A DNA stretch of 64,000 nt from the NCBI RefSeq assembly GCF_000020125.1, contig NC_010681.1:3286001-3350000 (forward strand). The letters run 5' to 3'. Numbering within the stretch: position 1 is the first letter of the stretch; the number at the start of each line of letters is the position of its first letter. The position numbers and the translations under genes were made by a program. Of this stretch, positions 49,330 through 63,894 are shown piece after piece. The notes under the pieces are model-generated. The model was not told the origin of the DNA and made no database searches. It saw nothing but the letters and a program-made list of their open reading frames with translations. Source of the DNA: Paraburkholderia phytofirmans PsJN. GTDB lineage: Bacteria; Pseudomonadota; Gammaproteobacteria; Burkholderiales; Burkholderiaceae.

Positions 49330-51945
49330 ATGAGAACAGTCACCCCACACCGCTATTCGAACCGCCGGGTTATCGGCTATACGTTGATCGCAGCCGCCGC
49401 CTTCCTGCTGGCAGGCCAGGCCACCTTCGCGCAGGAAATCGAGGAGGCGCCGCAGAGCGCCGCCGCCACGCAGAACACCGATCCGCCCGGCCGCGTCGCG
49501 CGCCTGAACTATACGGCGGGCGCCGTGACCACCGAACCGGCCGGCGCTACCGACTGGTCGTACGCGCAGATCAACCGCCCTCTCACCACCGGCGACCAGT
49601 TGTGGAACGATCAGAACGCCCGCTCGGAGCTCCACATCGGTTCGACCGCGGTGCGCCTCGGATCGTCCACAAGTCTCGATCTGCTCAATCTCGACGACAA
49701 CAGCGCCCAGCTCAAAGTCGCGCAGGGCACGCTGTCGGCGCGCGTGCGCGAGCTCGCGCCGGGTTCGTCCTATGAGATCGATACGCCGAATCTCGCGCTC
49801 GGTCTCAACGGTCCCGGCGACTACCGCGTCGACGTCGCGCCGGACGGCAGCAGCACGACCGTCACCGTGCGCAGCGGCGGCGCGACGGTGTACGGCGACA
49901 GCGGCCAGGTGCCGGTCGCGGCCGGCCAGCAAATCCGCTTTGGCGGCACCAACCTGCAACAGCTCGCCGACAACGGCGTACCCGGCCTCGACGCCTTCGA
50001 TCAGTGGGCCGCCGGCCGCGACGCTGCGGAAGACCGCTCGGTGTCGGCGCGCTACGTGTCGCGCGACATTCCCGGCTACCAGGACCTCGACGCTAACGGC
50101 ACATGGCAAAGCTCGCCGCAATACGGCGAAGTGTGGGTGCCGCGCGGCACGTCCGCCGGCTGGGCGCCCTATCGCGACGGCCACTGGGTCTGGCAGGCGC
50201 CGTGGGGCTGGACCTGGGTCGACGACGCGCCGTGGGGCTTCGCGCCCTACCACTACGGCCGCTGGGCGCAGGTCGACGACACGTGGGCATGGGTGCCGGG
50301 ACCGGTCGCGGTCAGCGAGCCGCCCGTCTACGCGCCGGCGCTCGTCGCTTTCGTGGGCGGCGGTGGCGGCGGCGTGAACTGGGGTGTGGATCTGGCGATC
50401 GGCGGAGCGGTCGCCGCCGGCGTCGCGTGGTTCCCGCTCGGGCCGGGCGAGCCGTGGCATCCGCATTGGGGCGGTCACGATCACTGGAGTCCCGGCTACT
50501 ACAACCGCGTCAACCAGACGACGATCGTCAACAACTACAACCGCAATGTGAATGTGACCAACATTCACAACACGTACATCAACTACCGCGCTCCGGGCGC
50601 CGTGACCGCGGTGCCCGCGACGGCCTTCGTGCACGGACAGCCGGTCGGGCGCTTTGCCCAGAAGGTCGATCCGCGGCAATGGCGCAACGCGCAGATCAAC
50701 CCGGGCGGTCCGGGCATCGCGCCGGTGCGGGAGAGTTTCGGGCCGGGCCAGCGCAACGCGAATTACCGGCCGCCGGCGGCGGTGATGACGCGTCCGGTGG
50801 TGGCGACGCGTAGTCCGGCGATGCCGGCGGCCTATCACGACAGCCTCGCGCAGCGTTTCGCGCAAAGCGGCGGACGAGTGCCGGGCGGCGGTCAGCCGAT
50901 CGTGCGGACCTCGGTGCCGGCGCACATGGCGGGCGGACCGAGCGCGCTGCCCGTGCAGAACGTGCGGGTCGTGCAGTCGCATATCGCCGGACGTGCGCCG
51001 GGCATGGCAGCGGGCGCACTGGGTGGACCGAATGGGATGCAGCAGCGGCCGGGCGAAGCACCGCGCGGTGGAGAGCAGCAAGCACGCCCAGGGATGCCGC
51101 CGGGTGCGCCGGGCGGAGCGGGCGCTATGCAACAGCAGGCCGCTCAGCGGCCGGGTGAAACACCGCATGGCGGCGAACCGCAAGCGCGGCCGGGCATGGC
51201 GCCGCAGATGGCCAATCAGCGGCCGCAGGCTGGGGAGGCGGGGCACCCGTCGAACGGTGTGCCGCGTCCGCCGCAAGCGAACGGTGGCAATCACGCGGGG
51301 TTTGCGCAGCAGCAACAGCAGCAGCCGCAGCGGGGAATGCCGCAGCAGGCGGGGCAGCAGCCGGGCGTGAACGAGCGGCACGAGCCCGCCTGGACTCAAC
51401 CGCACACGCCGATGGCGCAGCAAGCCCAACAGCGTGGCGGCCCGCAGCCGCAGGCTGGACGCCCGGAGTTCGCGCAACAGCCCGGCGCGGCGCGTCCCGG
51501 GGAAAATCCGGCGGCCCAGCAGCAACAGCAGCAGGCGCGTCAGCAGGAAATTCGGCCGCAGCCGCAGCAACAGGCTCAACTGCAGCGTCAGCCCGAGCCG
51601 CAGGCGCAGCGTCCGGCGGAAACCCAGGCGCAGCAACAGCCGCGTCAGGAATATCATCCGCAGCCCGTGCAGCAGCCGATGCAGCAGCCGCGTCAGGAAC
51701 CGCGTCAGCAGCAGGCGCAGCAGCAACCTCGGCCGGAGTTTCATCCGCAGCCGCAGCCTCAACAGCAGCCGCACCAGCAGCAGGCGCAACAACAGCCCCG
51801 GCCGGAGTTTCATCCGCAGCCGCAACAGCAGCCGCGCCAGGAACCGCGTCCGCAGCAGGCGCAGCAGCCGCGTCCTCAGGCACAGCCGCAGCACGGCGAC
51901 CAGCATTCGGGCGGCGGCAACCATGACGAGCATCGGAAAAGCTGA
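49330..51945 (+). CDS. FecR/DUF6600-domain secreted protein with Pro/Gln-rich tail
   Basis: An 871-residue secreted protein. It has a signal peptide (about 12-35, cleavage after TFAQ), a FecR-like beta domain (about 55-205), then a Trp/Pro/Tyr-rich DUF6600-type region (about 250-335; WAPYRDGHWVWQAPWGWTWV). A Gly-rich and His-rich segment follows. From about residue 560 it is Gln/Pro/Arg-rich low complexity, with repeated QQPRPEFHPQPQ words. The tail looks disordered. The role is unknown; cell-wall or envelope location is likely. Confidence 0.82.
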   Translation: MRTVTPHRYSNRRVIGYTLIAAAAFLLAGQATFAQEIEEAPQSAAATQNTDPPGRVARLNYTAGAVTTEPAGATDWSYAQINRPLTTGDQLWNDQNARSELHIGSTAVRLGSSTSLDLLNLDDNSAQLKVAQGTLSARVRELAPGSSYEIDTPNLALGLNGPGDYRVDVAPDGSSTTVTVRSGGATVYGDSGQVPVAAGQQIRFGGTNLQQLADNGVPGLDAFDQWAAGRDAAEDRSVSARYVSRDIPGYQDLDANGTWQSSPQYGEVWVPRGTSAGWAPYRDGHWVWQAPWGWTWVDDAPWGFAPYHYGRWAQVDDTWAWVPGPVAVSEPPVYAPALVAFVGGGGGGVNWGVDLAIGGAVAAGVAWFPLGPGEPWHPHWGGHDHWSPGYYNRVNQTTIVNNYNRNVNVTNIHNTYINYRAPGAVTAVPATAFVHGQPVGRFAQKVDPRQWRNAQINPGGPGIAPVRESFGPGQRNANYRPPAAVMTRPVVATRSPAMPAAYHDSLAQRFAQSGGRVPGGGQPIVRTSVPAHMAGGPSALPVQNVRVVQSHIAGRAPGMAAGALGGPNGMQQRPGEAPRGGEQQARPGMPPGAPGGAGAMQQQAAQRPGETPHGGEPQARPGMAPQMANQRPQAGEAGHPSNGVPRPPQANGGNHAGFAQQQQQQPQRGMPQQAGQQPGVNERHEPAWTQPHTPMAQQAQQRGGPQPQAGRPEFAQQPGAARPGENPAAQQQQQQARQQEIRPQPQQQAQLQRQPEPQAQRPAETQAQQQPRQEYHPQPVQQPMQQPRQEPRQQQAQQQPRPEFHPQPQPQQQPHQQQAQQQPRPEFHPQPQQQPRQEPRPQQAQQPRPQAQPQHGDQHSGGGNHDEHRKS

Positions 51946-52051: not shown

Positions 52052-53023
52052 TCAAACGGCCATCGGCGCCGTGAGCGGCTCGTGATGCCGGTAGCCGACC
52101 AGCGAGAAATCCGCCGGCTCGATCTTTTCAAGCCATTCCGGCTCGTACACGCCGGTTTTCGCATACTCCGGCACGCGCTCCGAGATCGCGAAGCTTGGGC
52201 TTTCATATGGCTCGCGCTTGAGCTGCTGCTGCAACATGTCGAGCTGATTCTCGTAGATATGCGCGTCGCCGATGAAATAGGTGAACCAGCGCGGCGTATA
52301 TCCCGTCAATCGCCCCACCAGATGCAGCAACGCCGCGCCTTCGGTCAGATTGAACGGCGTGCCGAGCCCGACGTCGTTACTGCGAATGTACAGGCACAGC
52401 GAAATTTCCCTGGTCACGGCATTCGGCAGGAACTGATACAGCAGATGGCAAGCCGGCAATGCGATCTGGTCCAGTACCGCCGGGTTCCACGCATGAAACA
52501 AAATGCGCCGGTCCGCGGGGTTATGCATGATCGTGTCGAGACACTGGCGCAGCTGGTCGATTGCCTTGTACAGCAGGATTTTGTTGCTGCCGTCTTCCTC
52601 GAATTCGGTCACCACCTGGAAGCCGCGCGCGGTCGCGTCGGCGAGTTGCGCGCCCGCGTTCGCGTCCAGCACCTTGTAGGCGGGCCACTGGCGCCACTGC
52701 ACGCCGTACACGTCGCCGAGATCGTCCGGACCCTGCCGGTAGGGATTGGCGAGCCATTGCGGATTCTGGTTGGCATTCGCGTCCCACACCTTGCAGCCGA
52801 GATCGCGGAAATCCGCCGCGCTGCGCGAAGCGCGCAGGAACCCGACCAGTTCGCCCACCGCCGATTTGAACGCCAGCTTTTTCGTGGTCACCGCGGGAAA
52901 ACCTTGCTGGAGATCGAAGCGCAACATCGCGCCCGGCATGCTGATGGTGCGGATGCCAGTGCGGTTCTCCTGCCACGTGCCGGTGTCGAGAATCGTGCGG
53001 ACGAGGTCGAGGTATTGTTTCAT
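52052..53023 (-). CDS. thyA: Thymidylate synthase
   Basis: Converts dUMP to dTMP with methylene-tetrahydrofolate as methyl donor. The 323-residue protein has active-site Cys192 in [10 protein letters not shown] and Asn in [12 protein letters not shown]. It is longer than the 264-residue Escherichia coli enzyme because of extra sequence before the active site, as in several other bacteria. It is divergent in orientation from folA, with the amyloid-like locus lying between them. Confidence 0.97.
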
Positions 53024-53287: not shown

Positions 53288-54682
53288 CTACAGATGCGGC
53301 ACCGAAGCCGGCAATTCGCCGTGCGGCGCGGCGAGCGGCTCGCCTTCCATATGGCGCATGCCATGCGAGCACAGCAGCCGGTACAAGGTGACGCGCGAGA
53401 TGCCGAGCTCCTGGGCGGCGTCGCCAAGCCGCCCGCGGTGACGCAACAGCGCCAGCTCGATAGCTTGACGTTCGGCCGCTTCACGCGCCTGCGCAAGAGA
53501 CACCGGCACGATCTCCACATATTCGGCGAGCTCGAGATCGCGCGCCGTGATCGCGCGCCCTTCCGACATCACGATCGCGCGCCGCACGCGGTTGATCAGC
53601 TCGCGCACATTGCCCGGCCAGCCGTAGTTATGGAGCGCCGCGATCGCGTCCGGCGCGAAGCCGCGCAAGCGACGACTTGCATCCTTCTTGAAACGTTCCA
53701 GCATATGGCGCGCGAGCAGTTCGATATCCTTACCGCGCGCGCGCAGCGGCGGTTCATCGATCTGCAATACGCACAGACGGTGATAGAGGTCGGAGCGGAA
53801 CCGTCCTTCGATCATCGCCGCGGTCATATCCACGTGCGTGGCCGAGATGATGCGCACGTCGACGTCGATCGCGCCGTGCCCACCCAGCCGCTCCACCTTG
53901 CGCTCCTGCAGGAAGCGCAGCAGGCTCGCCTGGCTTTCGAGTGGCAGGTCGCCGATTTCGTCGAGGAACAGCGTGCCGCCGTTCGCCGCTTCCACCCGGC
54001 CGATCTTGCGTTGATTGGCGCCGGTAAACGCGCCGCGTTCATAGCCGAATAGTTCGGATTGCAATAGATGCGGCGGGATCGCGCCGCAGTTGATCGGCAC
54101 GAAAGGCGCATTGCGCCGCGCCGAGCGTTCGTGAATCGCGACCGCCGTCAGCTCCTTGCCCGTGCCCGATTCGCCCGAGATGAAAACCGGCGCGTCGGTC
54201 ATCGCCACTTTGCGGATCGAACGGAACAGCGCGAGCATGGCGTCGCACGAGCCGACCATTTCGCCTTCGGCGCCTTGCGATGCATCGTTGGAAGCCGTTT
54301 CGCCGAGCGAAATCATGCCGTACGCATGACCCACCGAATCGACGATCCTGTCGCCCGAATACGGCACCGTGACGTAGTCGAAACAGTAGTCGCGCACGAG
54401 CCGGCGCAACGCGGCGTCTTGCAGTTGTCCGGGCATGGTGGCCGCGACCCAGCCCACGTTCGGCATGGTCAGGCAGGATTCGAAGGCAGCGATTTCGTGT
54501 GGCTGAAATTCGCTAGACAGATCAAGCAGGCCGCCGGCCGCCATTCCGGCGCGAACAGCGCGGCGCACGTCGCGCGCCGACCCCACGACTTCGACATGCC
54601 AGCCGCGCTGGTGAAACCGAGTATTCAGCTCCGCGCTCGGATCGCGCGAAACGTAAATCAGTTGCCGCGTTGCGGGTTCCAT
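53288..54682 (-). CDS. Sigma-54 activator 1 with VpsR-like N-terminus
   Basis: A 464-residue bacterial enhancer-binding protein. The N-terminal 130 residues resemble a degenerate receiver (LIYVSRDPSAELNTRF to YCFDYVTVPYSGDRI), as in VpsR. The AAA+ core has Walker A GESGTGKEL, the sigma-54 contact loop GAFTGA, Walker B LFLDEIGDL and an arginine-finger region. A Fis-type helix-turn-helix ends it (LGDAAQELGISRVTLYRLL). It faces away from the secreted-protein operon and is the left flank of the locus. It probably activates the -24/-12 promoter at 55174. Signal input is unknown; c-di-GMP sensing as in VpsR is inference. Confidence 0.9.
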   Translation of the reverse strand: MEPATRQLIYVSRDPSAELNTRFHQRGWHVEVVGSARDVRRAVRAGMAAGGLLDLSSEFQPHEIAAFESCLTMPNVGWVAATMPGQLQDAALRRLVRDYCFDYVTVPYSGDRIVDSVGHAYGMISLGETASNDASQGAEGEMVGSCDAMLALFRSIRKVAMTDAPVFISGESGTGKELTAVAIHERSARRNAPFVPINCGAIPPHLLQSELFGYERGAFTGANQRKIGRVEAANGGTLFLDEIGDLPLESQASLLRFLQERKVERLGGHGAIDVDVRIISATHVDMTAAMIEGRFRSDLYHRLCVLQIDEPPLRARGKDIELLARHMLERFKKDASRRLRGFAPDAIAALHNYGWPGNVRELINRVRRAIVMSEGRAITARDLELAEYVEIVPVSLAQAREAAERQAIELALLRHRGRLGDAAQELGISRVTLYRLLCSHGMRHMEGEPLAAPHGELPASVPHL

Positions 54683-54727
54683 TATTCAGATCCTCTCGTC
54701 AACGAACGTTAAGGATGACGCACGCAC

Positions 54728-54742
54728 CTGAAACAAGTTCAG
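54728..54742. repeat. Inverted repeat near the activator 1 start
   Basis: CTGAAACAAGTTCAG has 5-bp matching arms and shares the CTGAAAC word with the 18-bp palindrome at 55083. It lies 46 bp before the start of activator 1, so it may be an autoregulatory site. Confidence 0.45.
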
Positions 54743-54845
54743 ACACGCTGACTCATTCGGGATTCGCGATATAGCAAAAACCGAACGGCCATTCCATTCC
54801 GTGCGGACAGCTGATCCCCAAGAAAGCGGCGTGTGTGTTTGAGAC

Positions 54846-54866
54846 GGCCCGTTAGCGGGCTTTTTT
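54846..54866 (+). terminator. Orphan intrinsic terminator
   Basis: GGCCCG-TTA-GCGGGC with at least 5 paired bases, followed by six T. No gene lies before it on this strand, so it may end a small RNA or an upstream leader. A second hairpin AAGCTCT-TTTTCG-AGAGCTT follows at 54874-54893. Confidence 0.65.
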
Positions 54867-55082
54867 AAATTTGAAGCTCTTTTTCGAGAGCTTACTATAC
54901 GCGCGCCGCTTGGAAAACAATTATGCGAATTTAATCGCTCACACCATACCCGGCGCGGCTCCGCGGGCAATAACCAGTTATTCAGCCGACGAATAAAAAA
55001 TTAGTGGAAGCGCTTTTCCTCGCGTTGACCCAAGGTAGTTCATACCGCCCGAATTAACGAATTACAGGTATTTTCTGCTCAC

Positions 55083-55100
55083 CGTTTCAGCGCTGAAACG
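55083..55100. promoter_or_regulatory. Perfect 18-bp palindrome, likely activator-binding site
   Basis: CGTTTCAGCGCTGAAACG is fully symmetric. Its centre is 83 bp upstream of the -24 element of the sigma-54 promoter, a usual distance for an enhancer site of this activator class. A weaker site with the same AGCGCT core is centred exactly 80 bp further upstream (AAGCGCTT, 55008-55015). Confidence 0.75.
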
Positions 55101-55173
55101 TTTTTGCCAGATTTCTTATTTGTGACTCCGGCGTTTCGATTCGCATCCTGATCCATCAATGGATTGCGAGCGA

Positions 55174-55188
55174 TGGCACACGTTTCGC
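55174..55188 (+). promoter_or_regulatory. Sigma-54 (-24/-12) promoter
   Basis: TGGCAC-ACGTT-TCGC matches the sigma-54 consensus TGGCACN5TTGC with one change, and has the essential GG and GC exactly 10 bp apart. Predicted transcription start is near 55200, just before the ribosome site AAGGAGA and the first gene at 55217. Two sigma-54 activators flank the locus. Confidence 0.82.
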
Positions 55189-55216
55189 TAAATGCCGTGC
55201 ACCAAGGAGACACATC

Positions 55217-55714
55217 ATGCGACTCGCTTTCCGCATCGATCTGGGCAGCGTTGCACCATGCGCGGCACTTTGCACCGCAATCGCGCTGGTCATGCTGCCC
55301 ATTGGCGCCAACGCACAGGAAGCCGGACAGGCTCCATCCGCCACGCTGACGGAATCCACCGATGCAGGCTCCGCCACCGTCCCGAACGCCTCGCTCGCCA
55401 CCCCCGCTTCAGCCGATACGACGACGCGCGCCGCCACCCTGTTCTCGCAGCTTGCCGCCAACGTGCTGAGCATTCCGGCCGATGGTGCATCCGTGAACGA
55501 TTTTTCGCTCGACGACCAGGTGCTCTCGCGGCAACGCGGCGGCGCGGTCGGCATGGTGATGGTGGCCGCGACGCCGCAGCTCATGCGCGGCAATGGCGGC
55601 AGCGGCAACAACGTGACGCTATGGGACGAGATCGCCCCGCCCTCGCCTTTACCGATTCCGATCGACGCGGCGCGCGCCGCCCAGGGCAACGTCGCCAACT
55701 ATCAAAGAAAGTAG
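55217..55714 (+). CDS. Secreted protein Orf1 of the amyloid-like locus
   Basis: First gene of the operon, 165 residues, no recognised family. It has a signal peptide (about 1-33, ANAQ). The middle is Ser/Thr/Ala-rich. At residues 98-109 lies LDDQVLSRQRGG, like a double-glycine leader, followed by a hydrophobic stretch (VGMVMVAA) and a Gly-rich then Pro-rich end (GNNVTLWDEIAPPSP). The same order of parts is found in the next gene. AAGGAGA precedes the ATG, downstream of the sigma-54 promoter. Confidence 0.82.
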   Translation: MRLAFRIDLGSVAPCAALCTAIALVMLPIGANAQEAGQAPSATLTESTDAGSATVPNASLATPASADTTTRAATLFSQLAANVLSIPADGASVNDFSLDDQVLSRQRGGAVGMVMVAATPQLMRGNGGSGNNVTLWDEIAPPSPLPIPIDAARAAQGNVANYQRK

Positions 55715-55802
55715 CCGACGAACTTAGCAAAGCAGACAGGGGTGGCGGTGCGGCCAATGCACCGCCCGCAGGCAAGACAACAAGACATAAGCAAGGACCG
55801 AC

Positions 55803-56330
55803 ATGACTGCCTCAAACCGGACGCCGCACGCACGCAGGTCGCGGGTGTCGTCGCACACCTCGTTGCCGTCGGCGCTGGCAAGCGTGCTGGTCCTGTTCAG
55901 CGCCTCGTTTGCCGTCGACGCCTTGGCTCAGCAGGCCGCCAATCCCGGCGACATCATCGTCGAGCGCACGGTCACCCCGCGCGACGCCTTCGTGCCGGTG
56001 CCGAGGAGTCAGGAGCCGGTCGCCGTGCGCGCCACCACTTTCCCGGCTAACTCGTTCAATCCGGCCGTCGCCCAGATCGTGGGCGATACCGATCTGACGA
56101 ATGCGCACGGGTCGAGCGGCGTGGCGGACGGTGGCGTACTCGGCGGCACCGGCATGCAGGCGGTGACCCAGATCCTCAGCGGCAAGGCAACCGGCAACAA
56201 CGTGGCGCTCAATTCCGGCGGTATCGGCCTGCCCGCGCCGGGCATCGGCGGGACCATTACCTCCACGGTGACGGGCTCGCTGGCGCCGCTGTCGAACGCG
56301 CTCACCGGCGCGCTTGGAGGAATGAAATGA
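55803..56330 (+). CDS. Secreted protein Orf2 of the amyloid-like locus
   Basis: 175 residues with an N-terminal signal peptide (about 1-43, ending ALAQ) after a basic leader. Residues 94-105 (GDTDLTNAHGSS) are a weak match to the double-glycine-like motif of Orf1. GNNVALNSGGIGLPAPG (131-147) matches the GNNV and Pro-rich block of Orf1, so the two look related. The end is Leu/Gly/Thr-rich. Function is unknown. It overlaps the next gene (ATGA) and is coupled to it. Confidence 0.8.
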   Translation: MTASNRTPHARRSRVSSHTSLPSALASVLVLFSASFAVDALAQQAANPGDIIVERTVTPRDAFVPVPRSQEPVAVRATTFPANSFNPAVAQIVGDTDLTNAHGSSGVADGGVLGGTGMQAVTQILSGKATGNNVALNSGGIGLPAPGIGGTITSTVTGSLAPLSNALTGALGGMK

Positions 56331-56962
56331 GCCCGCTCGCGCATCCCCTCATGCTTCGGACGCTGCAGGCGGCGCTGTGCGTCTGCATGGGCGCGGCCCT
56401 GGTGGCGAACCACGCCCACGCGCAGTCCGTACCGACGATCGGCGCCACCTCGACCATCGCCAACGGCGCGGCGGCCGGCGTGACGGGCGCGTTCGCCGTC
56501 AACGAAACGGCCGGCCTGAACAACGCGCAGGCCAATCAGATCACGGTGTCGAACGGTGGCGTGGCCGGCAACGACAACGCCAGCGTGCAGAGCGCCGCCG
56601 TGGCCGCGAAGGTCACGAACGCGCGGGCGTCGATCGAAGCCAATGCTTTTTCGAATTCATCCGGTGCGGTGCTGGTGAACCAGTCCGCCGGAGCAGGAAA
56701 TCTGCAGCGCAACAGTACCCAATTGGGCACTGCGGCGCTCGGAGTCGAGACCGTCGCGGATGGGGAGCTATCCGCGACGGCCGCGAAAAACGGAGGTCTG
56801 GGGCAATCAGCGGGGATTCACAGCGTACGCGAAGCAACGATTTCAGATGATGCCTTCAGAAACATCAGCGGGATCGTGCAGATCAACCAGACGGCCGGCG
56901 CCGGTAATGCCACGGCGAACAGTTTTGTGCTCCGTCCCCCGGCGGGCACTTTTTTTAACTGA
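56327..56962 (+). CDS. Short amyloid-repeat protein (FapA/FapB-like)
   Basis: 211 residues with a signal peptide (about 1-33, HAQS). Three copies of a 21-residue repeat, starting at 54, 113 and 182, share the pattern G-x-x-x-[VI]-N-[EQ]-[ST]-A-G-x-x-N-x-x-x-N (for example VNQSAGAGNLQRNS). The repeats and position before the larger subunit fit a minor amyloid subunit or nucleator as FapB is in Pseudomonas. That is by analogy, with no strong sequence match claimed. Confidence 0.75.
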   Translation: MSPLAHPLMLRTLQAALCVCMGAALVANHAHAQSVPTIGATSTIANGAAAGVTGAFAVNETAGLNNAQANQITVSNGGVAGNDNASVQSAAVAAKVTNARASIEANAFSNSSGAVLVNQSAGAGNLQRNSTQLGTAALGVETVADGELSATAAKNGGLGQSAGIHSVREATISDDAFRNISGIVQINQTAGAGNATANSFVLRPPAGTFFN

Positions 56963-56988
56963 CCAAACTTAAAGTATCGGAGCGAATC

Positions 56989-58380
56989 ATGAAGCGCACT
57001 CTTATTGCCGCAGCCGTTCTCGTTGCCGCATCCGGCAGCGCGTTTGCCGCACCGCAAAAGGCCTATCTGTTCAATGCGACGCTGGTCGGCGAAGCGGTCG
57101 GCATTGAAGGTCTGGTCGGCCTGTATGGTTGCGTCCACGTGTCCAGCACGGCCGGCGCGGTCGTCAACAACAACCAGTCGGTCAACGTCAACGCGACGCT
57201 CAACCCGCAATCGCAGAGCTATACGACCGGCCGCGTGACGACTACTTACAACAACAATAGCTCGTCGATCAAGGGCGGCGGGTCGGTGTTCGCCGTGGCG
57301 TCGCAAAGCCACTCGACTTCTTCGTCGAGCGCGCAGGGCTATCAGGCATCGGGCGGCTATGTGTACGGCAGCCACAGCAGCTCTGTCGCGGGCGGCGGCT
57401 ATCAGACCAGCCAGCAGGCAGCGGCGATCACGGGTGGCTTCACGCACACCAGCCAGAATTCCGGCGGCCACATCGCAGCCGGCGGTTCGATCGGCGGCAA
57501 CTACAGCTATTCGGGCATCAACACGCCGTTCGGCGGCGGCGGGTCGTTCCATGCAGCGGGCGGACTGCAGGCCGGCTACCGGGAATCGAGCTACTCCAAC
57601 TCGTCGGGCGTAGCCGGCGGCTTCGAGGCATCGGAAGCATCCGGACAGGGCAAGGTGTGGGGCTACAAGGCCAGCGAAGGTTCGGGCTTCGCGGCGGTCG
57701 GCGAACAGTCGTCCGGGTACACGAGGAGCCGGACCTCGTCCAGCGACGCTTATGCCGCCGCATTCGGCGTCGACGCGAGCCTCACCACGACCGACGTGAC
57801 AACCCGTGGCTCGGTGACGCAGCACATCAACACGCAAGCGGCCGGCACGCTGAACGCCACCACCGGCGCCAACGCGGCCAACGGTGTCTCGGGCAACCTG
57901 GGCATCAACATCGCGGAAGGTATCAGCAACGCCCAGAGCAATGACGTGTCGCTCGCCTCGGTCGACATCGGCAACGTGTTCGGCAATGCGCAGATCTTCA
58001 GCACGCAAGCGTCGAGCGGCAACGCCCGGATCAACAACTTCAATCTGAATGCGTCGATCGGGGACGGCTCGCTGTCGGGTGTGACCGGCAACGTCGGGGT
58101 GAACGTCGCCTCGGGTATCGGCAACGTGCAGAACAACAGCCTCGCCGGCGCCGTGACGACGACCAAGCCGGGCAACGCGCTGACCACGGCGATGGTCGCC
58201 ACGGACGACAACTCGCAAACCGCCGGCATGACGGTGACGGGTCAATTCCAGGGCACCGCGATGCTGGGTTCCAACGCGCTCGCCAACGCATCCGGCAACA
58301 TCGGCGTGAATATCGCCGGCGGCGCGGGCAACCTGCAGCACAACGGCCTTGCGATCGCTGCGCTGAACAGCGGCCACTAA
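56989..58380 (+). CDS. Putative major amyloid subunit (FapC-like)
   Basis: 463 residues with a signal peptide (about 1-21, AFAA). The middle (about 80-250) is Ser/Gly/Tyr/Asn-rich, low in charge. The C-terminal part has three repeats of the Fap type: GNLGINIAEGISNAQSN (302-318), GNVGVNVASGIGNVQNN (367-383) and GNIGVNIAGGAGNLQHN (436-452). Those repeats, Gln/Asn-containing linkers and the next three genes in Fap order point to the amyloid subunit. It has one Cys (48), not the paired C-terminal Cys of some FapC proteins. Confidence 0.78.
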   Translation: MKRTLIAAAVLVAASGSAFAAPQKAYLFNATLVGEAVGIEGLVGLYGCVHVSSTAGAVVNNNQSVNVNATLNPQSQSYTTGRVTTTYNNNSSSIKGGGSVFAVASQSHSTSSSSAQGYQASGGYVYGSHSSSVAGGGYQTSQQAAAITGGFTHTSQNSGGHIAAGGSIGGNYSYSGINTPFGGGGSFHAAGGLQAGYRESSYSNSSGVAGGFEASEASGQGKVWGYKASEGSGFAAVGEQSSGYTRSRTSSSDAYAAAFGVDASLTTTDVTTRGSVTQHINTQAAGTLNATTGANAANGVSGNLGINIAEGISNAQSNDVSLASVDIGNVFGNAQIFSTQASSGNARINNFNLNASIGDGSLSGVTGNVGVNVASGIGNVQNNSLAGAVTTTKPGNALTTAMVATDDNSQTAGMTVTGQFQGTAMLGSNALANASGNIGVNIAGGAGNLQHNGLAIAALNSGH

Positions 58381-58478
58381 GCCGGCGACAGGCACAAGAA
58401 AGAAGCCAGCAAGCAGTTGGGGGAGGACGCGCTGGCAGCCATCGCAGCGGCCGGCGCGTATAGAAGGGGGAGACCAGC

Positions 58479-59192
58479 ATGTTGGGGTTCCGGTGGTACC
58501 CGGCACTACGGTTCGCCGTAGCGCTGGCCAGCTGCACGCTGTGCGTGGGCCAGAGTTACGCGCAGTCGAGCATCGACACGTCCACGCTGGCGGGCGTTCC
58601 GTTGAAAAAGACGGTGCGCTCGATGAAGGACATCCGCTACAGCCACATCGTCAATCAGCAGTTCGACTACAGCTGCGGCGCGGCGGCGCTGGCGACGCTC
58701 CTCAAATACGGCTATGGCATCGATATTCCGGAAACCGAACTGATTCGCCGGATGATGGTGTTCTCCACGCCCGAAGTCGTTGTCAAGAATGGCTTCTCCA
58801 TGCTCGACATGAAGAAATTCGTCGAGACCATCGGTTTGCGCGGCCGCGGCTTCCGGGTCAACGCCGACGCGCTCCAGCACTTGCAGATTCCCGTGATGGT
58901 TCTGATGAACATCGACGGGTACGAGCATTTCGTGATCGTCAAGCATGCGCAGGACGGCCGCGTGTTCATCGCGGATCCTGCCCTCGGCAATCGCATCGTG
59001 CTCGAAGAGGACTTCATGCGGACCTGGAACGGTCTGGTGTTCGCGGTCCTCGGCAAACCCTTCAGGGAGGATTCCCCGCTCTTGCAGGACAACGAGTCGC
59101 TCGCGCTCAAGCTGCGCGCCAGCGCGCTGGCCAACGGCACCGCTGCGACTCCCTTCGTCGAGTACGGCTTGATCAAGGCAGACCTGTTCTGA
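58479..59192 (+). CDS. C39 family peptidase (FapD-like)
   Basis: 237 residues with a signal peptide (about 1-29, YAQS), so it acts in the periplasm. C39 peptidase features: Gln60/61, nucleophile Cys66 in FDYSCGAAALATLL, His150 in GYEHFVIVK and Asp166 in FIADPALG. This is the form found in fap operons, where FapD is such a peptidase. Unlike bacteriocin exporters it has no ABC domain. AAGGGGGAG precedes the ATG. Its likely substrates are other proteins of this locus. Confidence 0.88.
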   Translation: MLGFRWYPALRFAVALASCTLCVGQSYAQSSIDTSTLAGVPLKKTVRSMKDIRYSHIVNQQFDYSCGAAALATLLKYGYGIDIPETELIRRMMVFSTPEVVVKNGFSMLDMKKFVETIGLRGRGFRVNADALQHLQIPVMVLMNIDGYEHFVIVKHAQDGRVFIADPALGNRIVLEEDFMRTWNGLVFAVLGKPFREDSPLLQDNESLALKLRASALANGTAATPFVEYGLIKADLF

Positions 59193-59199
59193 ACCAACC

Positions 59200-60027
59200 A
59201 TGAAGCAACACCTCACCCAACTCGGGCTCGCGCTCTGCACCGTGATGTGCGGCTTGAGCGGAACAAGCGGCAGCGCCCAGGCGGCATCGGGCGCCGGCTC
59301 GCCGCCGTTGCCCGAATTTCTCGCTTCTCATGACAGCGGCTCCGCCGCCGTCAAGGTGCAGATGGTGGACGACGACGTCCTCGCCGGACAGACCGGCAAA
59401 TATGCCGGCGCCACGATGATCTCCGGCTTCGTTCTGAACATCATCTCGCAATGGCAACTGCCCAACGGCGTGACCGCCGTCGCCCAGGGCACGCTCGGCG
59501 CGGCGCAGAACGCGCTCGGCCAGGTGACGACCACCGTCAGCACGCTCGCGAGCGTGAGCGGCGGCGGCCCCGGCAGCCACACCAATGCCGCCAGTTCGGG
59601 AGCCGATCCCAACGCTCACGTCAATGGTGGCCAGAGCATCACGGTCAACGGCGTTTCACAAGTGACCCAGGTGGCAGGCGACCGTAACAGCGGCGCCAAT
59701 TCCGCGCTCATCGATTTCAATAACAACGCCGCGACGCTGGCGGGCACCGCCAATGCCCCGTCAGCCACGGCCAGCAATTCGACCGGCTCCGTCAAAGCCG
59801 GCATCTCGTTCGGCAGCAACGGCATCAGTGTCGTGCTGCAGACGCCGGCTGGGCTCGCCACCCAGACGGTCACGCCGGGCAACGGGCAAATCGCCCAGTT
59901 GCTGCAGATCGCAGGCAATAGCCAGCAAGTCGCCAACGCATTGCAGCTGCATTTGCAAACTCAGCCAATGTCGGCCTCGATGATCCGCCAGTTAGGCGTA
60001 CTACAAGCGCTGCAAAACAGGAGGTGA
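59200..60027 (+). CDS. FapE-like secreted protein
   Basis: 275 residues with a signal peptide (about 1-28, AQAA). The N-terminal part has VDDDVLAGQTGK at 56-67 followed by a hydrophobic stretch and ISQWQ, like the short start of FapE proteins. The middle is Asn/Ala/Gly-rich (GANSALIDFNNNAATL), and the end is Gln/Leu-rich. It follows the C39 gene by 7 nt. FapE role is by position and this short motif; no catalytic motif is seen. Confidence 0.68.
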   Translation: MKQHLTQLGLALCTVMCGLSGTSGSAQAASGAGSPPLPEFLASHDSGSAAVKVQMVDDDVLAGQTGKYAGATMISGFVLNIISQWQLPNGVTAVAQGTLGAAQNALGQVTTTVSTLASVSGGGPGSHTNAASSGADPNAHVNGGQSITVNGVSQVTQVAGDRNSGANSALIDFNNNAATLAGTANAPSATASNSTGSVKAGISFGSNGISVVLQTPAGLATQTVTPGNGQIAQLLQIAGNSQQVANALQLHLQTQPMSASMIRQLGVLQALQNRR

Positions 60028-60128
60028 ACACGCGGGCCGCCACCCGCCGACCGTAGCAAGGCAGTACACGTCAGGCCGCGCATCGTCAGGACCGGGGGTG
60101 CGCGGCCCGAACACCGGGGGAATACAAA

Positions 60129-61565
60129 ATGAACAGTCTTTCGTCGAAGAAGGTGCCACGCATGGCACTGGCGGCCATTCCGGCCGCCGTCATGCTGTTG
60201 GCGCTTTCGCAAGAAGCGAGCGCCCAGGCGCTCGCTGGACAATCGATCGAAGAACGTCTGAATACGTTGATGCGGGTCGTCGACGAGCAACAGCGGCAAA
60301 TTCATTCACTCGAGCGCCAGGTGACCAATCTGGAAATGTCGCAACGCGGCCGAGGCGTACCGGGTGCCGGCGCGTCGGCGGGCAGCGAAGCCGTGGCCGA
60401 ACAGCCCGGCGCCGACGGTTTGCCGGTGCCGCTGCCGCTGCTCGCCCAGGTCAGTCCCGGCGCGCCCGCGACTGGCGGCAACACGGGCACGGCGACCGGC
60501 GTGCCCGTCTATCCACCGACGCCCGCAGGCAGCAGCGCAGGCGGCCTGCCGCCGGCCAGCGACGGCAGCGGTGCGGTCGGCCAGACGCAGAAAGCGGCCG
60601 AGCCGGTGCGCACGCAGGCCGAGGAAGCGGTCGTGCAGCGCGAGCATGCCCCGCTCTTCGACCACAAGCTGACAATGGACTGGGGCATCAGCGACACCTA
60701 CTACGATCGCCGCCAGCTGCAGTTGTCGGGCTTCCTCGCTCTCGACGCGATTTTCCTCGGCAACATCAATCTGGGCGAGACCAAGTCGCACCAGGTGATG
60801 GCGGATCTCGATACGCGCTACGGCCTGACCGACCGCATGAGTGTCGATGTCGACGTGCCGTACATCTACCGCCATAGCAACTTCATTGTGGGCGGCGCGG
60901 GCGGCGCGGCGAGCACGATGTCGGATGCCTCGGTGAACGGCAGCAATATCGGCGACGTCAATTTCGGGATCTACTACCAGTTCCTGAAGGAGACCAACAG
61001 TCTGCCGGACGTGGTCGGCAGCCTGCGCATCAAGGCGCCGACCGGCACCTCGCCGTTCGGCGAGAAGCTGGTGCAGCTGGACGCCAACAACACCAATCTG
61101 GTGGCGCCGGGCAAGCTGCCCACCGGCACGGGCTTCTGGAACATCACGGCCGGCGTTTCGCTGTTGAAGACCTACGACCCGGTGGTGCTGTTCGGCAGCC
61201 TCTCTTATACCTACAACGTCGCGCGCTCGTTCGCGGATATCTCCTCGGTGCAGGGGCAAACCCAGCCGGCCACCGTCAAGCTCGGCGACATCGTGCAGTT
61301 CGGCGGCGGCGTGGCGCTCGCATTCTCCGACAAGGACTCGGCCAGCATCTCCTACACGATGGCGCTCGCACCCGAATCGAAGACGCGCGCCCCCGGCGGC
61401 TCATACGAAAAGGTGCCGGGCAGCGAGACGACGGCCGCGGCGCTGAATTTTGGCCTGAACCACGTCGTGAACAAGCACCTGACCATCAACGGCTCGGTCT
61501 CCGTGGGCTTGACGCCCGACGCGCCGAACTTCGTGGTCGGCATGCGGTTTCCCTACACATTCTGA
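60129..61565 (+). CDS. FapF-like outer-membrane amyloid exporter
   Basis: 478 residues with a signal peptide (about 1-33, SAQA). A coiled-coil follows (about 38-75; RLNTLMRVVDEQQRQIHSL), then a Pro/Gly/Ala linker (80-165), and a C-terminal beta-barrel domain (about 180-478) ending in Phe. Barrel landmarks LSGFLALDAIFLG and RYGLTDRMSVDVDVPYIYR match the FapF pore pattern. FapF is the trimeric channel that exports the amyloid subunits. GGGGGAA precedes the ATG. Confidence 0.85.
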   Translation: MNSLSSKKVPRMALAAIPAAVMLLALSQEASAQALAGQSIEERLNTLMRVVDEQQRQIHSLERQVTNLEMSQRGRGVPGAGASAGSEAVAEQPGADGLPVPLPLLAQVSPGAPATGGNTGTATGVPVYPPTPAGSSAGGLPPASDGSGAVGQTQKAAEPVRTQAEEAVVQREHAPLFDHKLTMDWGISDTYYDRRQLQLSGFLALDAIFLGNINLGETKSHQVMADLDTRYGLTDRMSVDVDVPYIYRHSNFIVGGAGGAASTMSDASVNGSNIGDVNFGIYYQFLKETNSLPDVVGSLRIKAPTGTSPFGEKLVQLDANNTNLVAPGKLPTGTGFWNITAGVSLLKTYDPVVLFGSLSYTYNVARSFADISSVQGQTQPATVKLGDIVQFGGGVALAFSDKDSASISYTMALAPESKTRAPGGSYEKVPGSETTAAALNFGLNHVVNKHLTINGSVSVGLTPDAPNFVVGMRFPYTF

Positions 61566-61589
61566 CGTGTCAACGAAACGAGGTCGAAC

Positions 61590-63158
61590 GTGCGTGAATC
61601 ACCTCATCTGACCAGTGTTGCTCCGGCCGCCGGAGCGGGATCGGGGGCGCAGCGGGCACGGGCGCTGCCGAACGGGACGGCGGCGGGCTGTCCCGTCGAT
61701 GCCGCGACAGGCCGGCCTTCGGCGGTAGTGTCGACGGTCGGCGGCGCGGCGCCGTTGGCCGCGGTGGCCAATGCCGGCGTCGAGCGCTTGCTGCTGTATG
61801 TGGCGCGCACACCGGACGACACGCTGATCGCGCACCTGAAAAGCCGTGGTTGGCACGTCCTCGCGGCGCGTTCGGCGCATGAACTCGGCCGGCTGGTGAA
61901 ACCCGATGTGGCTTGCGCCGGCATCGTCGATCTGGCGAGCTTTCCGCCGCGCGACCTCGCCGGACTCGAAACGAGCTTGCGCCAGCAGCAGGTCGGCTGG
62001 ATCGCGCTCGCCACCAGCGAACGGCTCAACGATCCGGTGGTGCGGCGCCTCGTGCGCCACTACTGTTTCGACTTCGTCAAGGTGCCGGTGGCCAACGCCA
62101 CGGTCGACTATCTGGTCGGCCACGCATACGGCATGGTGACGCTGTGCGAGCCCGAACTCGCGCCGCCCGTGAGCGAGTCGGGCGACGAAGAAATGGTCGG
62201 CACCTGCGAAGCCATGCAGCAGCTGTTTCGCACCATCCGCAAGGTGGCCAACACCGACGCGAGCGTGTTCATTTCCGGCGAGTCGGGCACAGGCAAGGAG
62301 CTGACTGCGCTCGCGATTCACGAGCGCTCGCCGCGCCGCAAGGCGCCGTTCATCGCGATCAATTGCGGCGCGATTCCGCACCATCTGCTGCAATCCGAAT
62401 TGTTCGGCTATGAGCGCGGCGCATTCACCGGCGCGAATCAGCGCAAGATCGGCCGCGTCGAGGCCGCCGACGGCGGCACGCTGCTGCTCGACGAAATTGG
62501 CGATCTGCCGCTCGAAAGCCAGGCGAGCCTGCTGCGCTTTTTGCAGGAAGGCAAGATCGAGCGGCTCGGCGGACGCGAATCGATTCCGGTCGACGTGCGG
62601 ATCATTTCCGCCACCCACGTCGATCTGGAAGGCGCAATGCGCGACGGCCAGTTCCGCGCCGACCTGTTTCACCGGCTCTGCGTGCTGCGGGTGGACGAGC
62701 CGCCGCTGCGCGCGCGCGGCAAGGACATCGAAATTCTCGCGCAGCACATTCTGCACAAGTTCAAGACCGACAGCGCGCGCAAGATCCGCGGCTTCACGCC
62801 GTCCGCGATCGAGGCGCTCTACAACTACAACTGGCCCGGCAACGTCCGCGAGCTGATCAACCGGGTGCGCCGCGCGATCGTGATGGCGGAGAACAAGCTG
62901 ATTTCCGCCGACGACCTCGATCTCGCGCACTTCACCGCGCAGCAGACCATGACGCTCTCGCAAGCGCGCGAGGCCGCCGAGAAGCGCGCGATCGAGGCGG
63001 CGCTGCTGCGTCATCGTCATCGGTTGAACGAGGCGGCGGCGGATCTGAATATTTCGCGCGTGACGCTGTATCGCTTGATGGGCCAGCACGGGTTGCGCGA
63101 ATTGAGCTCCGCCGACGAGAAGGCGGCGTTCGGCGCGGGCGATGGCGCGCCGGTGTGA
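61590..63158 (+). CDS. Sigma-54 activator 2 with VpsR-like N-terminus
   Basis: A 522-residue paralog of activator 1, with a 60-residue Ala/Gly-rich N-terminal extension. Same parts: degenerate receiver-like domain, AAA+ core (GESGTGKEL, GAFTGA, LLLDEIGDL) and Fis-type helix-turn-helix (NEAAADLNISRVTLYRLM). The receiver-like part shares the RLVRHYCFDFVKVP and VGHAYGM blocks with activator 1. It starts with GTG 24 nt after the FapF-like gene, so it is probably the last gene of the operon and gives feedback. Confidence 0.9.
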   Translation: MRESPHLTSVAPAAGAGSGAQRARALPNGTAAGCPVDAATGRPSAVVSTVGGAAPLAAVANAGVERLLLYVARTPDDTLIAHLKSRGWHVLAARSAHELGRLVKPDVACAGIVDLASFPPRDLAGLETSLRQQQVGWIALATSERLNDPVVRRLVRHYCFDFVKVPVANATVDYLVGHAYGMVTLCEPELAPPVSESGDEEMVGTCEAMQQLFRTIRKVANTDASVFISGESGTGKELTALAIHERSPRRKAPFIAINCGAIPHHLLQSELFGYERGAFTGANQRKIGRVEAADGGTLLLDEIGDLPLESQASLLRFLQEGKIERLGGRESIPVDVRIISATHVDLEGAMRDGQFRADLFHRLCVLRVDEPPLRARGKDIEILAQHILHKFKTDSARKIRGFTPSAIEALYNYNWPGNVRELINRVRRAIVMAENKLISADDLDLAHFTAQQTMTLSQAREAAEKRAIEAALLRHRHRLNEAAADLNISRVTLYRLMGQHGLRELSSADEKAAFGAGDGAPV

Positions 63159-63393
63159 GGCGGCGCAGTGTGGATGCGGTCGGTGGTTTCTTGAAGCCGC
63201 GTGAAGCCGCGTGCTGCGCGTGGGGCGCGTGGTGCGTGTCACGCAGCGAAATCGAGCAGCCGCGCTGCGGATAGCGCATGGCTTGGCCGGGCGCGTCCCG
63301 GCCGACTGCGCGGTCACGCACCGAAACCCGCCTCCGCGGCCCAAACCCCCGCGTCAGGTAGAATCAGTCCGGTTACGTTCCCCTTTCCATTCG

Positions 63394-63894
63394 ATGACGA
63401 CGCTCACCCTGATCGTCGCTCGCGCCAACAATGGCGTGATCGGCCGCGACAACCAGTTGCCCTGGCGACTTCCCGAAGACCTCGCGTTCTTCAAGCGCAC
63501 CACCATGGGCGCGCCCATCATCATGGGACGCAAGACGCACGAGTCGATCGGCCGGCCGTTGCCGGGACGCCGCAACATTATCGTGACACGGGATGCCACG
63601 CGGCGTTTCCAGGGCTGCGACGCGGCCACCACGCTCGAAGACGCGCTCAAGCTCGCCGCTCAGGACCAGGCGCCGGAAGCGTTTCTGATCGGCGGCGCGC
63701 AGTTGTATGCGGAAGGTTTGCGGCAGGCGGACAAGCTGATCATCACCGAGATTTCCGCCGACTTCGAAGGCGACGCCACTTTCCCGGCGCTCGATGAAAA
63801 CGAGTGGGAAGAAGTCGCGCATGAAACGCATCGCGCGGATGCGCCGAACGATTTCGACTACGCGTTCGTGACGTATAAGCGCAAAGGCGCTTAA
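63394..63894 (+). CDS. folA: Dihydrofolate reductase
   Basis: Reduces dihydrofolate to tetrahydrofolate; regenerates the cofactor used up by ThyA. The 166-residue protein has the signature [16 protein letters not shown] (active-site acidic residue in PEDL), [16 protein letters not shown] and [16 protein letters not shown] at 63394 gives the family start ([17 protein letters not shown]). The in-frame start at 63211 is inside non-conserved sequence. Confidence 0.96.

Follow-up and report, generated by a model that had tools for sequence, protein, structure and literature searches.

Fap functional-amyloid systems have been described as a single fapABCDEF operon in all taxa but seven named genera, among which the accessible part of that survey does not place Burkholderia (Dueholm et al. 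2013; PMC3792158), and a 2025 review counted 1602 fap clusters, >90% of which are fapABCDEF or fapBCDEF; the available portion of that review mentions no seventh gene (PMC12822426). Expression of fap is driven by RpoN in Pseudomonas fluorescens (PMC8202526). In P. fluorescens PF07, brfA, which encodes an RpoN-dependent activator, is a neighbour of fapF and runs in the reverse direction; its loss lowers the expression of fapA and fapC (PMC9207406), and BrfA itself senses cyclic di-GMP (c-di-GMP; PMC13101488). We focus here on a fap locus at positions 53288..63158 of a 64,000-nucleotide stretch of the Paraburkholderia phytofirmans PsJN genome (NC_010681.1, positions 3,286,001 to 3,350,000), the whole of which is referred to below as the window. 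By profile comparison, the locus is a complete fapABCDEF functional-amyloid operon, arranged as orf1-fapABCDEF-ebp2, from whose genes fibre formation is predicted. It is headed by a conserved secreted protein, Orf1, that has a likely FapD cleavage motif in common with FapE, and it appears to end in a sigma-54 activator of its own, EBP2.

Gene content and conservation of the locus

An initial annotation, made from the sequence alone, had described seven secreted or envelope proteins encoded in one direction together with two sigma-54 activators. All of these open reading frames (ORFs) are present at 53288..63158: a divergent activator, seven same-direction secreted or envelope ORFs (55217-61565), and a second activator. 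EBP1, fap, and EBP2 lie between genes that we take to be thyA (52052-53023, minus strand) and folA (approximately 63391-63894, plus strand). Comparison of the window proteins with NCBIfam, Pfam, and PDB profiles gave the following assignments, in which all NCBIfam Fap matches fall below NCBI's strict equivalog cut-offs:

53288..54682, minus strand: EBP1, VpsR-type sigma-54 activator (VpsR domain, AAA+ domain with GAFTGA, Fis-type helix-turn-helix; Pfam), divergent from the operon
55217..55714, plus strand: Orf1, 165 aa, secreted, encoded first in the operon; candidate seventh Fap component
55803..56330, plus strand: FapA, chaperone (NCBIfam NF058617, E 3.5e-8; position between Orf1 and fapB)
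56327..56962, plus strand: FapB, minor subunit/nucleator (NCBIfam NF058557, E 3e-21; three repeats)
56989..58380, plus strand: FapC, major fibre subunit (NCBIfam NF058558, E 1.1e-15, three stretches)
58479..59192, plus strand: FapD, periplasmic C39 peptidase (NCBIfam NF058616, E 9.7e-63; PF03412, E 3.6e-23)
59200..60027, plus strand: FapE (NCBIfam NF058559, E 1.6e-11)
60129..61565, plus strand: FapF, outer-membrane secretion channel with coiled coil (NCBIfam NF058560, E 1.7e-105)
61590..63158, plus strand: EBP2, VpsR-type sigma-54 activator (Pfam), encoded last in the operon

The fapC-D-E-F order recognized at the outset is upheld and widens to fapABCDEF, as fapB-C-D-E-F stand in order on one strand and the optional fapA is also present. 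Fap repeats of the GNxQxN pattern occur three times in FapB and twice in FapC, the latter matching the FapC profile in three stretches. The proteins previously called FapE-like and beta-barrel are FapE and FapF by profile, and the best solved structure for the window is that of FapF (PDB 5o65, E 5.7e-81 over FapF residues 178-478). Both FapD and FapF fit the Fap models of NCBIfam far better than those of FilB and FilC, and FapF is 97% identical to a Paraburkholderia sediminicola protein. Because NCBIfam names six of the seven ORFs, the gene formerly listed as Orf2 is FapA, and Orf1 is the only nameless one, with no family in Pfam or NCBIfam and no known domain. The initial annotation had counted two extra secreted proteins, the first two genes, as lacking a family; this applies to Orf1 only.

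Gene order was surveyed in the best 80 of 86 named loci from a FapF search, belonging to Paraburkholderia, Trinickia, and strains still labelled Burkholderia, with neighbours called by tblastn of the window proteins and automatic gene calling. Orf1-FapA-B-C-D-E-F-EBP2 all lie on the plus strand in this order in 73/80 loci; six of the remaining seven lack one gene by automatic calling (probably a real absence in L111 and L113), and the seventh, L055, is a 3.2-kb contig too short to inform on Orf1 or EBP1, leaving 79 informative loci. EBP1 is divergent in 79/80 loci, L055 not extending to it, and EBP2 follows FapF in 79/80 (not in L113) with a median gap of 24 bp by automatic start choice. Orf1 is present in all 79 informative loci, tblastn detecting 78 of them and a profile the remaining one, L114. 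This conservation of gene order and orientation is far beyond chance.

Orf1 is also co-inherited with fap. When Orf1 and FapF were sought separately in 98 related genomes, 48 of the 58 from the same genus had both (counting G043, whose FapF is truncated at a contig edge), four had Orf1 alone, none had FapF alone, and six had neither, one of these (G008) with a weak Orf1 match containing a stop. The 40 genomes outside the genus held no convincing Orf1, with one weak match (G087) carrying two stops, and gave FapF-like matches in five, one of them strong (G065). The four Orf1-only genomes (L186-L189) have lost the fap genes between EBP1 and folA by deletion or retain them in decayed form; they keep an intact EBP1 together with Orf1 or a remnant of it.

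The motif common to Orf1 and FapE

The N-terminal part of Orf1 comprises an apparent Sec signal peptide followed by variable sequence. Two blocks are near-invariant, residues 98-113 (L-D-D-Q-x-L-S-x-Q-R-G-G-x-x-G-M) and 133-164 (VTLWDEIAPP...AQGN..YQR), and three short features of Orf1 and FapE bear on their proposed function:

55508..55543, plus strand: Orf1 residues 98-109, LDDQVLSRQRGG, double-glycine-type motif in common with FapE (79-row alignment, profile match to FapE)
55613..55630, plus strand: Orf1 residues 133-138, VTLWDE, family signature (79/79 rows)
59365..59400, plus strand: FapE residues 56-67, VDDDVLAGQTGK, proposed FapD site (equivalent RG[KR][YF] in 15/15 FapE from other families)

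Residues D100, L103, Q106, and G108 of Orf1 are found in 79/79 rows and G109 in 74/79; G108 is replaced by Arg in 1/21 rows of another alignment. The V, L, W, and D of VTLWDE are kept in all 21 rows of alignment A4, which includes distant members. The double-glycine leader of C39 substrates has a hydrophobic residue at -12, Leu at -7, a hydrophobic residue at -4, and Gly at both -2 and -1. Set against these rules, Orf1 has Leu/Ile at -12, Leu at -7, and Gly at -2 in every one of the 79 rows, Gly at -1 in 74, and Gln at -4. The corresponding RG[KR][YF] of distant FapE, located approximately 40-90 residues from the start, is preceded at fixed places by Leu/Met (15/15) and Asp/Glu (12/15).

Profile-profile comparison of the wide Orf1 family with wide FapE by hhalign placed residues 93-118 on 42-67 with a probability of 73.8% and a score of 38.7; the next best Fap protein reached 10.3%, and 60 controls (one reversed and 59 shuffled profiles) scored at most 14.9. 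The C-terminal part of Orf1 likewise found FapE best among the Fap profiles (27.3%, with the others at most 0.5%). Searched against 2738 proteins, the Orf1-family profile matched 29 FapE with E-values up to 1 (best 3.2e-4) in alignments that include the signal peptide, and matched FapF solely via its N-terminus (best 0.049). Kinship between FapA and Orf1 was considered and dropped, as profile comparison gave no relation.

Published work bears on this motif from the side of the peptidase. The catalytic cysteine of FapD is required for FapC secretion, and FapE is the sole protein with complete N-terminal processing, its first ~70 residues being without peptides, with the FapF linker perhaps processed too; Fap proteins are described there as having no canonical C39 sites, and the FapD target was called unclear in 2017 (PMC5557850). 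According to the 2025 review, FapD "is thought to" process FapE and FapF (PMC12822426). The motif lies at a position that fits where FapE is trimmed, and we infer from the sequences that FapE and Orf1 would both be FapD substrates, cut at the common motif. FapD is essential for Fap secretion, and the available parts of the 2017 paper and the 2025 review do not give its cut site (PMC5557850, PMC12822426); a motif common to FapE and a co-inherited small protein offers an exact, testable candidate.

Two observations concern FapF. Just past its coiled coil, residues 68-76 (60330-60356) read LEMxQRGRG, which is invariant in 9 aligned FapF and resembles the QRGG of Orf1; cleavage of FapF close to this site has been suggested (PMC5557850). 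Some distant FapF (L142, L143, L150) also score with a position matrix of the FapE motif.

The Orf1 family extends beyond the genus. A search of 369 genomes of the class found FapE in 16, the window genome among them; of the other 15, all but G255 (14 genomes) were inspected, through 15 regions 16-20 kb in length. Short ORFs at the 5′ end of distant fap operons encode a signal peptide, [LVI]x[DE]xxLxxxxG, V[IT]LWDE or similar, and a terminal GxxNxQ. With an 11-row family model (A3), the same 369 genomes yielded 14 places in 13 genomes, six already in the model and eight independent. Seven of these eight, from other families of the class, adjoin fap genes or FapD/FapF-type genes, three of them (L172-L174) being fap-like clusters; the eighth, which is the weakest (E 0.0097), has no fap-type neighbour. 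In a protein collection, 464 relatives reached E 0.001; among the 120 matches listed, most named rows read "hypothetical", and copper resistance, RodZ, and PRC-barrel, the few annotations of another kind, seem to be unrelated. It is a tentative proposition, to which we give slightly less than even chances, that many Fap systems hold an overlooked seventh protein, the Orf1 family with its GG-type motif and VxLWDE, which would be, with FapE, a processed FapD substrate; [LVI]x[DE]xxLxxxRG[GKR] would then be the FapD cut site, and the released pieces would start secretion through FapF.

The fap-like clusters L172-L174 combine FapD/FapF relatives with an Orf1-family or LTDHELSSLRGGF protein, show no FapE match with the FapE profile used, and may be a sister system that stands between Fap and Fil. 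Another distant fap cluster (L143:8174-10599) has a shortened fapD, just before which lies an ORF that we presume to resemble a transposase; two further fap-like places, L151 and L170, occur in the same genome (G360).

Control region and the two activators

The EBP1-Orf1 intergenic region measures 534 bp and, besides its ends, contains two conserved islands:

55083..55100, no strand: 18-bp palindrome CGTTTCAGCGCTGAAACG, proposed activator site (GTTTC-N6-GAAAC pattern, conservation)
55174..55189, plus strand: sigma-54 promoter, GG-N10-GC (TGGCACACGTTTCGCT), 27 bp before the Orf1 start codon

The promoter was first spotted by eye and then tested for score, spacing, and conservation, strict sigma-54 patterns having missed it because its -12 element reads TCGCT. 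In a comparison of 79 upstream regions with 1580 shuffles, the threshold promoter score of at least 9 of 12 was reached by 78/79 regions and 112/1580 shuffles, and no 18-bp stretch of the region is more conserved than the one containing the promoter. The palindrome pattern GTTTC-N6-GAAAC occurs in 71/79 regions and in 0/1580 shuffles. In the 8.2-Mb, three-contig genome the exact palindrome is found once, and allowing two mismatches adds four further places, versus one for a control pattern. Spacing is nearly fixed: GTTTC and TGGC are 91 bp apart in 64 and 90 bp apart in six of the 70 loci that have both elements, the window showing 90 bp. Outside the genus, the promoter match of 8/16 first genes was equalled by no more than 1/200 shuffles, four of these eight matches lying at, or no more than 16 bp from, the start codon taken, which is possibly miscalled. 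Scans for sigma-70 promoters and terminators gave nothing above shuffles.

EBP1 and EBP2 both possess what is expected of sigma-54 activators, namely an AAA+ domain with GAFTGA and Walker A and a Fis-type helix-turn-helix (HTH_8), in addition to a VpsR domain. GAFTGA is present in 80/80 best matches for each activator, one EBP1 match (L055) being a cross-hit to EBP2. They are sister groups of a single clade (100/99), and the EBP1 group also takes in L184, a further activator from this genome. Of ten genomes of the genus without fap, eight retain EBP1 at 96-98% and none has an intact EBP2 orthologue, pieces of EBP2 being present in one (L188); this argues that EBP2 belongs to fap and that EBP1 has another task. 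EBP2 is probably a dedicated, self-amplifying fap activator. Linked activators are usual for fap outside the genus too, given that 14/15 distant fap regions contain a sigma-54 activator against an expectation of ~0.05 per 20 kb, derived from the 20 full activators of this genome; a VpsR domain was detected in seven of the ten scanned among those 14 regions, one of them below cut-off. An LFRS string in EBP1 was considered as the FleQ c-di-GMP motif and not counted, its position differing from that of the motif in FleQ.

Outside the fap locus, beside the presumed thyA, positions 49330-51945 encode a secreted protein of 871 aa that contains a DUF6600 domain and whose C-terminal half is very rich in Gln and Pro.

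A proposed scheme, its rivals, and known systems

We regard as moderately probable a scheme in which orf1-fapABCDEF-ebp2 is driven by sigma-54 and EBP2, with Orf1 as a seventh component and a FapD substrate alongside FapE. RNA polymerase with sigma-54 would start at the GG-N10-GC promoter upstream of orf1, which would be opened by a VpsR-type activator, most likely EBP2, bound to the palindrome ~90 bp further upstream. Since EBP2 would be made last by the operon itself, the operon would switch itself on and stay on; the signal is likely c-di-GMP, by analogy with BrfA and BerB. FapA-F would build the fibre as in Pseudomonas. Orf1 would reach the periplasm via its Sec-type signal peptide and offer a FapE-like leader motif, [LVI]xDxxLxxxxG[GKR], to FapD, which would cut both proteins and free their C-terminal parts. 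The freed Orf1 piece, with its invariant VTLWDE block, would most likely assist FapE in initiating or capping the fibre at FapF. An activator placed last in its own operon, together with a unique palindrome at a fixed distance, predicts an all-or-none matrix switch in Paraburkholderia.

A number of observations weigh against this scheme. On the side of control, the palindrome pattern is absent from 8/79 upstream regions, and EBP1 adjoins the palindrome more closely than does EBP2. As for cleavage, FapE has Lys/Arg in place of the second Gly (-1) of the classic leader, and Orf1 of L144/L175 reads RA instead of RG. The first profile comparison with full-length Orf1 ranked the FapB signal peptide (15.5%) above FapE (12.2%), and in the FapE-only motif matrix the Orf1 median of 5.9 lies below a chance window in FapF (8.4); the matrix is therefore not specific, and it was replaced by the profile-profile comparison with controls. 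Since only 6/15 distant fap regions gave an Orf1-family member by profile, not every Fap system requires Orf1. The L174 protein, from one of the seven supporting places, carries the motif without the LWDE block and so is perhaps not a genuine Orf1. AlphaFold2 run on Orf1 with 20 close relatives returned no fold and no strands (mean predicted local distance difference test score 50.4, predicted template-modelling score 0.15). Finally, no Fap repeat of the FapB/FapC type was found in the window Orf1 (score -9.9), nor, at that score, the C-terminal half-repeat present in distant members.

That half-repeat enters into a different reading of Orf1 as an uncut minor subunit or cap, whose DxxLxxxxG would dock onto FapF or FapD while LWDE and the C-terminal half-repeat stack on FapB/C. 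In distant members the half-repeat (GxxNxQ) lies 2-6 residues from the C-terminus, where 8/12 exceed the 99th percentile of control ORFs and only 5/12 that of their own shuffles, and C39-like domains can be chaperones (PMC5557850). Against this stand the requirement of FapD for its catalytic cysteine, reported in the same paper, and the window Orf1 itself, which fails the half-repeat score, for which reason a half-repeat ending is not claimed for Orf1, and in which the low-confidence structure prediction places no strand. Taken together, we consider an uncut Orf1 quite unlikely. That Orf1 is a passenger of unrelated function travelling with the operon is improbable: it has no known domain and outlives fap in four genomes, full-length in one (L186), but seven of the eight independent places of its family, in other families of the class, adjoin genes of fap or fap-like type, and it has its motif in common with FapE.

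Control could also be read with EBP1 as the main fap activator, binding the palindrome, and EBP2 as a mere amplifier or heteromeric partner. EBP1 adjoins the palindrome and is 79-99% identical across loci (the L055 cross-hit left out), and in the four decayed loci with EBP1 the palindrome persists in three and the promoter in all four. The retention of EBP1 in most fap-less genomes, none of which has an intact EBP2, speaks the other way and leaves a leading role for EBP1 somewhat unlikely.

Burkholderia fap operons are already published (PMC3792158), in agreement with the statement in the initial annotation that Fap homologues had been reported in betaproteobacteria. Because fap in this group and sigma-54 control are both published, neither is new here. 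Novelty had been sought in the accessory genes and their control, of which Orf1 and the layout of control are worth pursuing, FapA and sigma-54 control being known. As far as our literature search reached, the new elements would be a conserved seventh component with the same likely FapD site as FapE, and the placing of the operon's apparent own activator as its last gene; the search, which missed most subscription papers, found no published seventh fap gene.

Pseudomonas fap resembles the present locus in its six genes, their order, the FapB/FapC repeats, the C39 peptidase FapD, the FapF channel, and, in P. fluorescens, RpoN dependence (PMC8202526, PMC9207406). Compared with Pseudomonas fap as published, the locus has an extra first gene, orf1, an activator that is last in the operon rather than reversed, and a second, divergent activator. 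The contrast drawn earlier, that the operon has a sigma-54 activator of its own unlike Pseudomonas fap, is wrong, as brfA adjoins fapF in P. fluorescens (PMC9207406). The Burkholderia operons, not being among the named exceptions, come under the single fapABCDEF operon reported for most taxa, with neither orf1 nor linked activators named in the accessible part of the description (PMC3792158). BrfA is of the same RpoN-dependent type as the EBPs and its gene also adjoins fapF; it senses c-di-GMP and is needed for normal fap expression (PMC9207406, PMC13101488), but by description, which is the level of this comparison, it is a single gene in reverse orientation. BerB of Burkholderia cenocepacia is likewise a GAFTGA activator and works with RpoN and c-di-GMP; it differs, again by description, in being reported without an N-terminal input domain and in acting on berA (PMC5552954). 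VpsR, compared by description as well, has the N-terminal domain type of the EBPs but works without RpoN. FilB/FilC-type systems, like the present locus, pair a C39 peptidase with a FapF-like channel, and the fap-like clusters L172-L174 match the Orf1 family.

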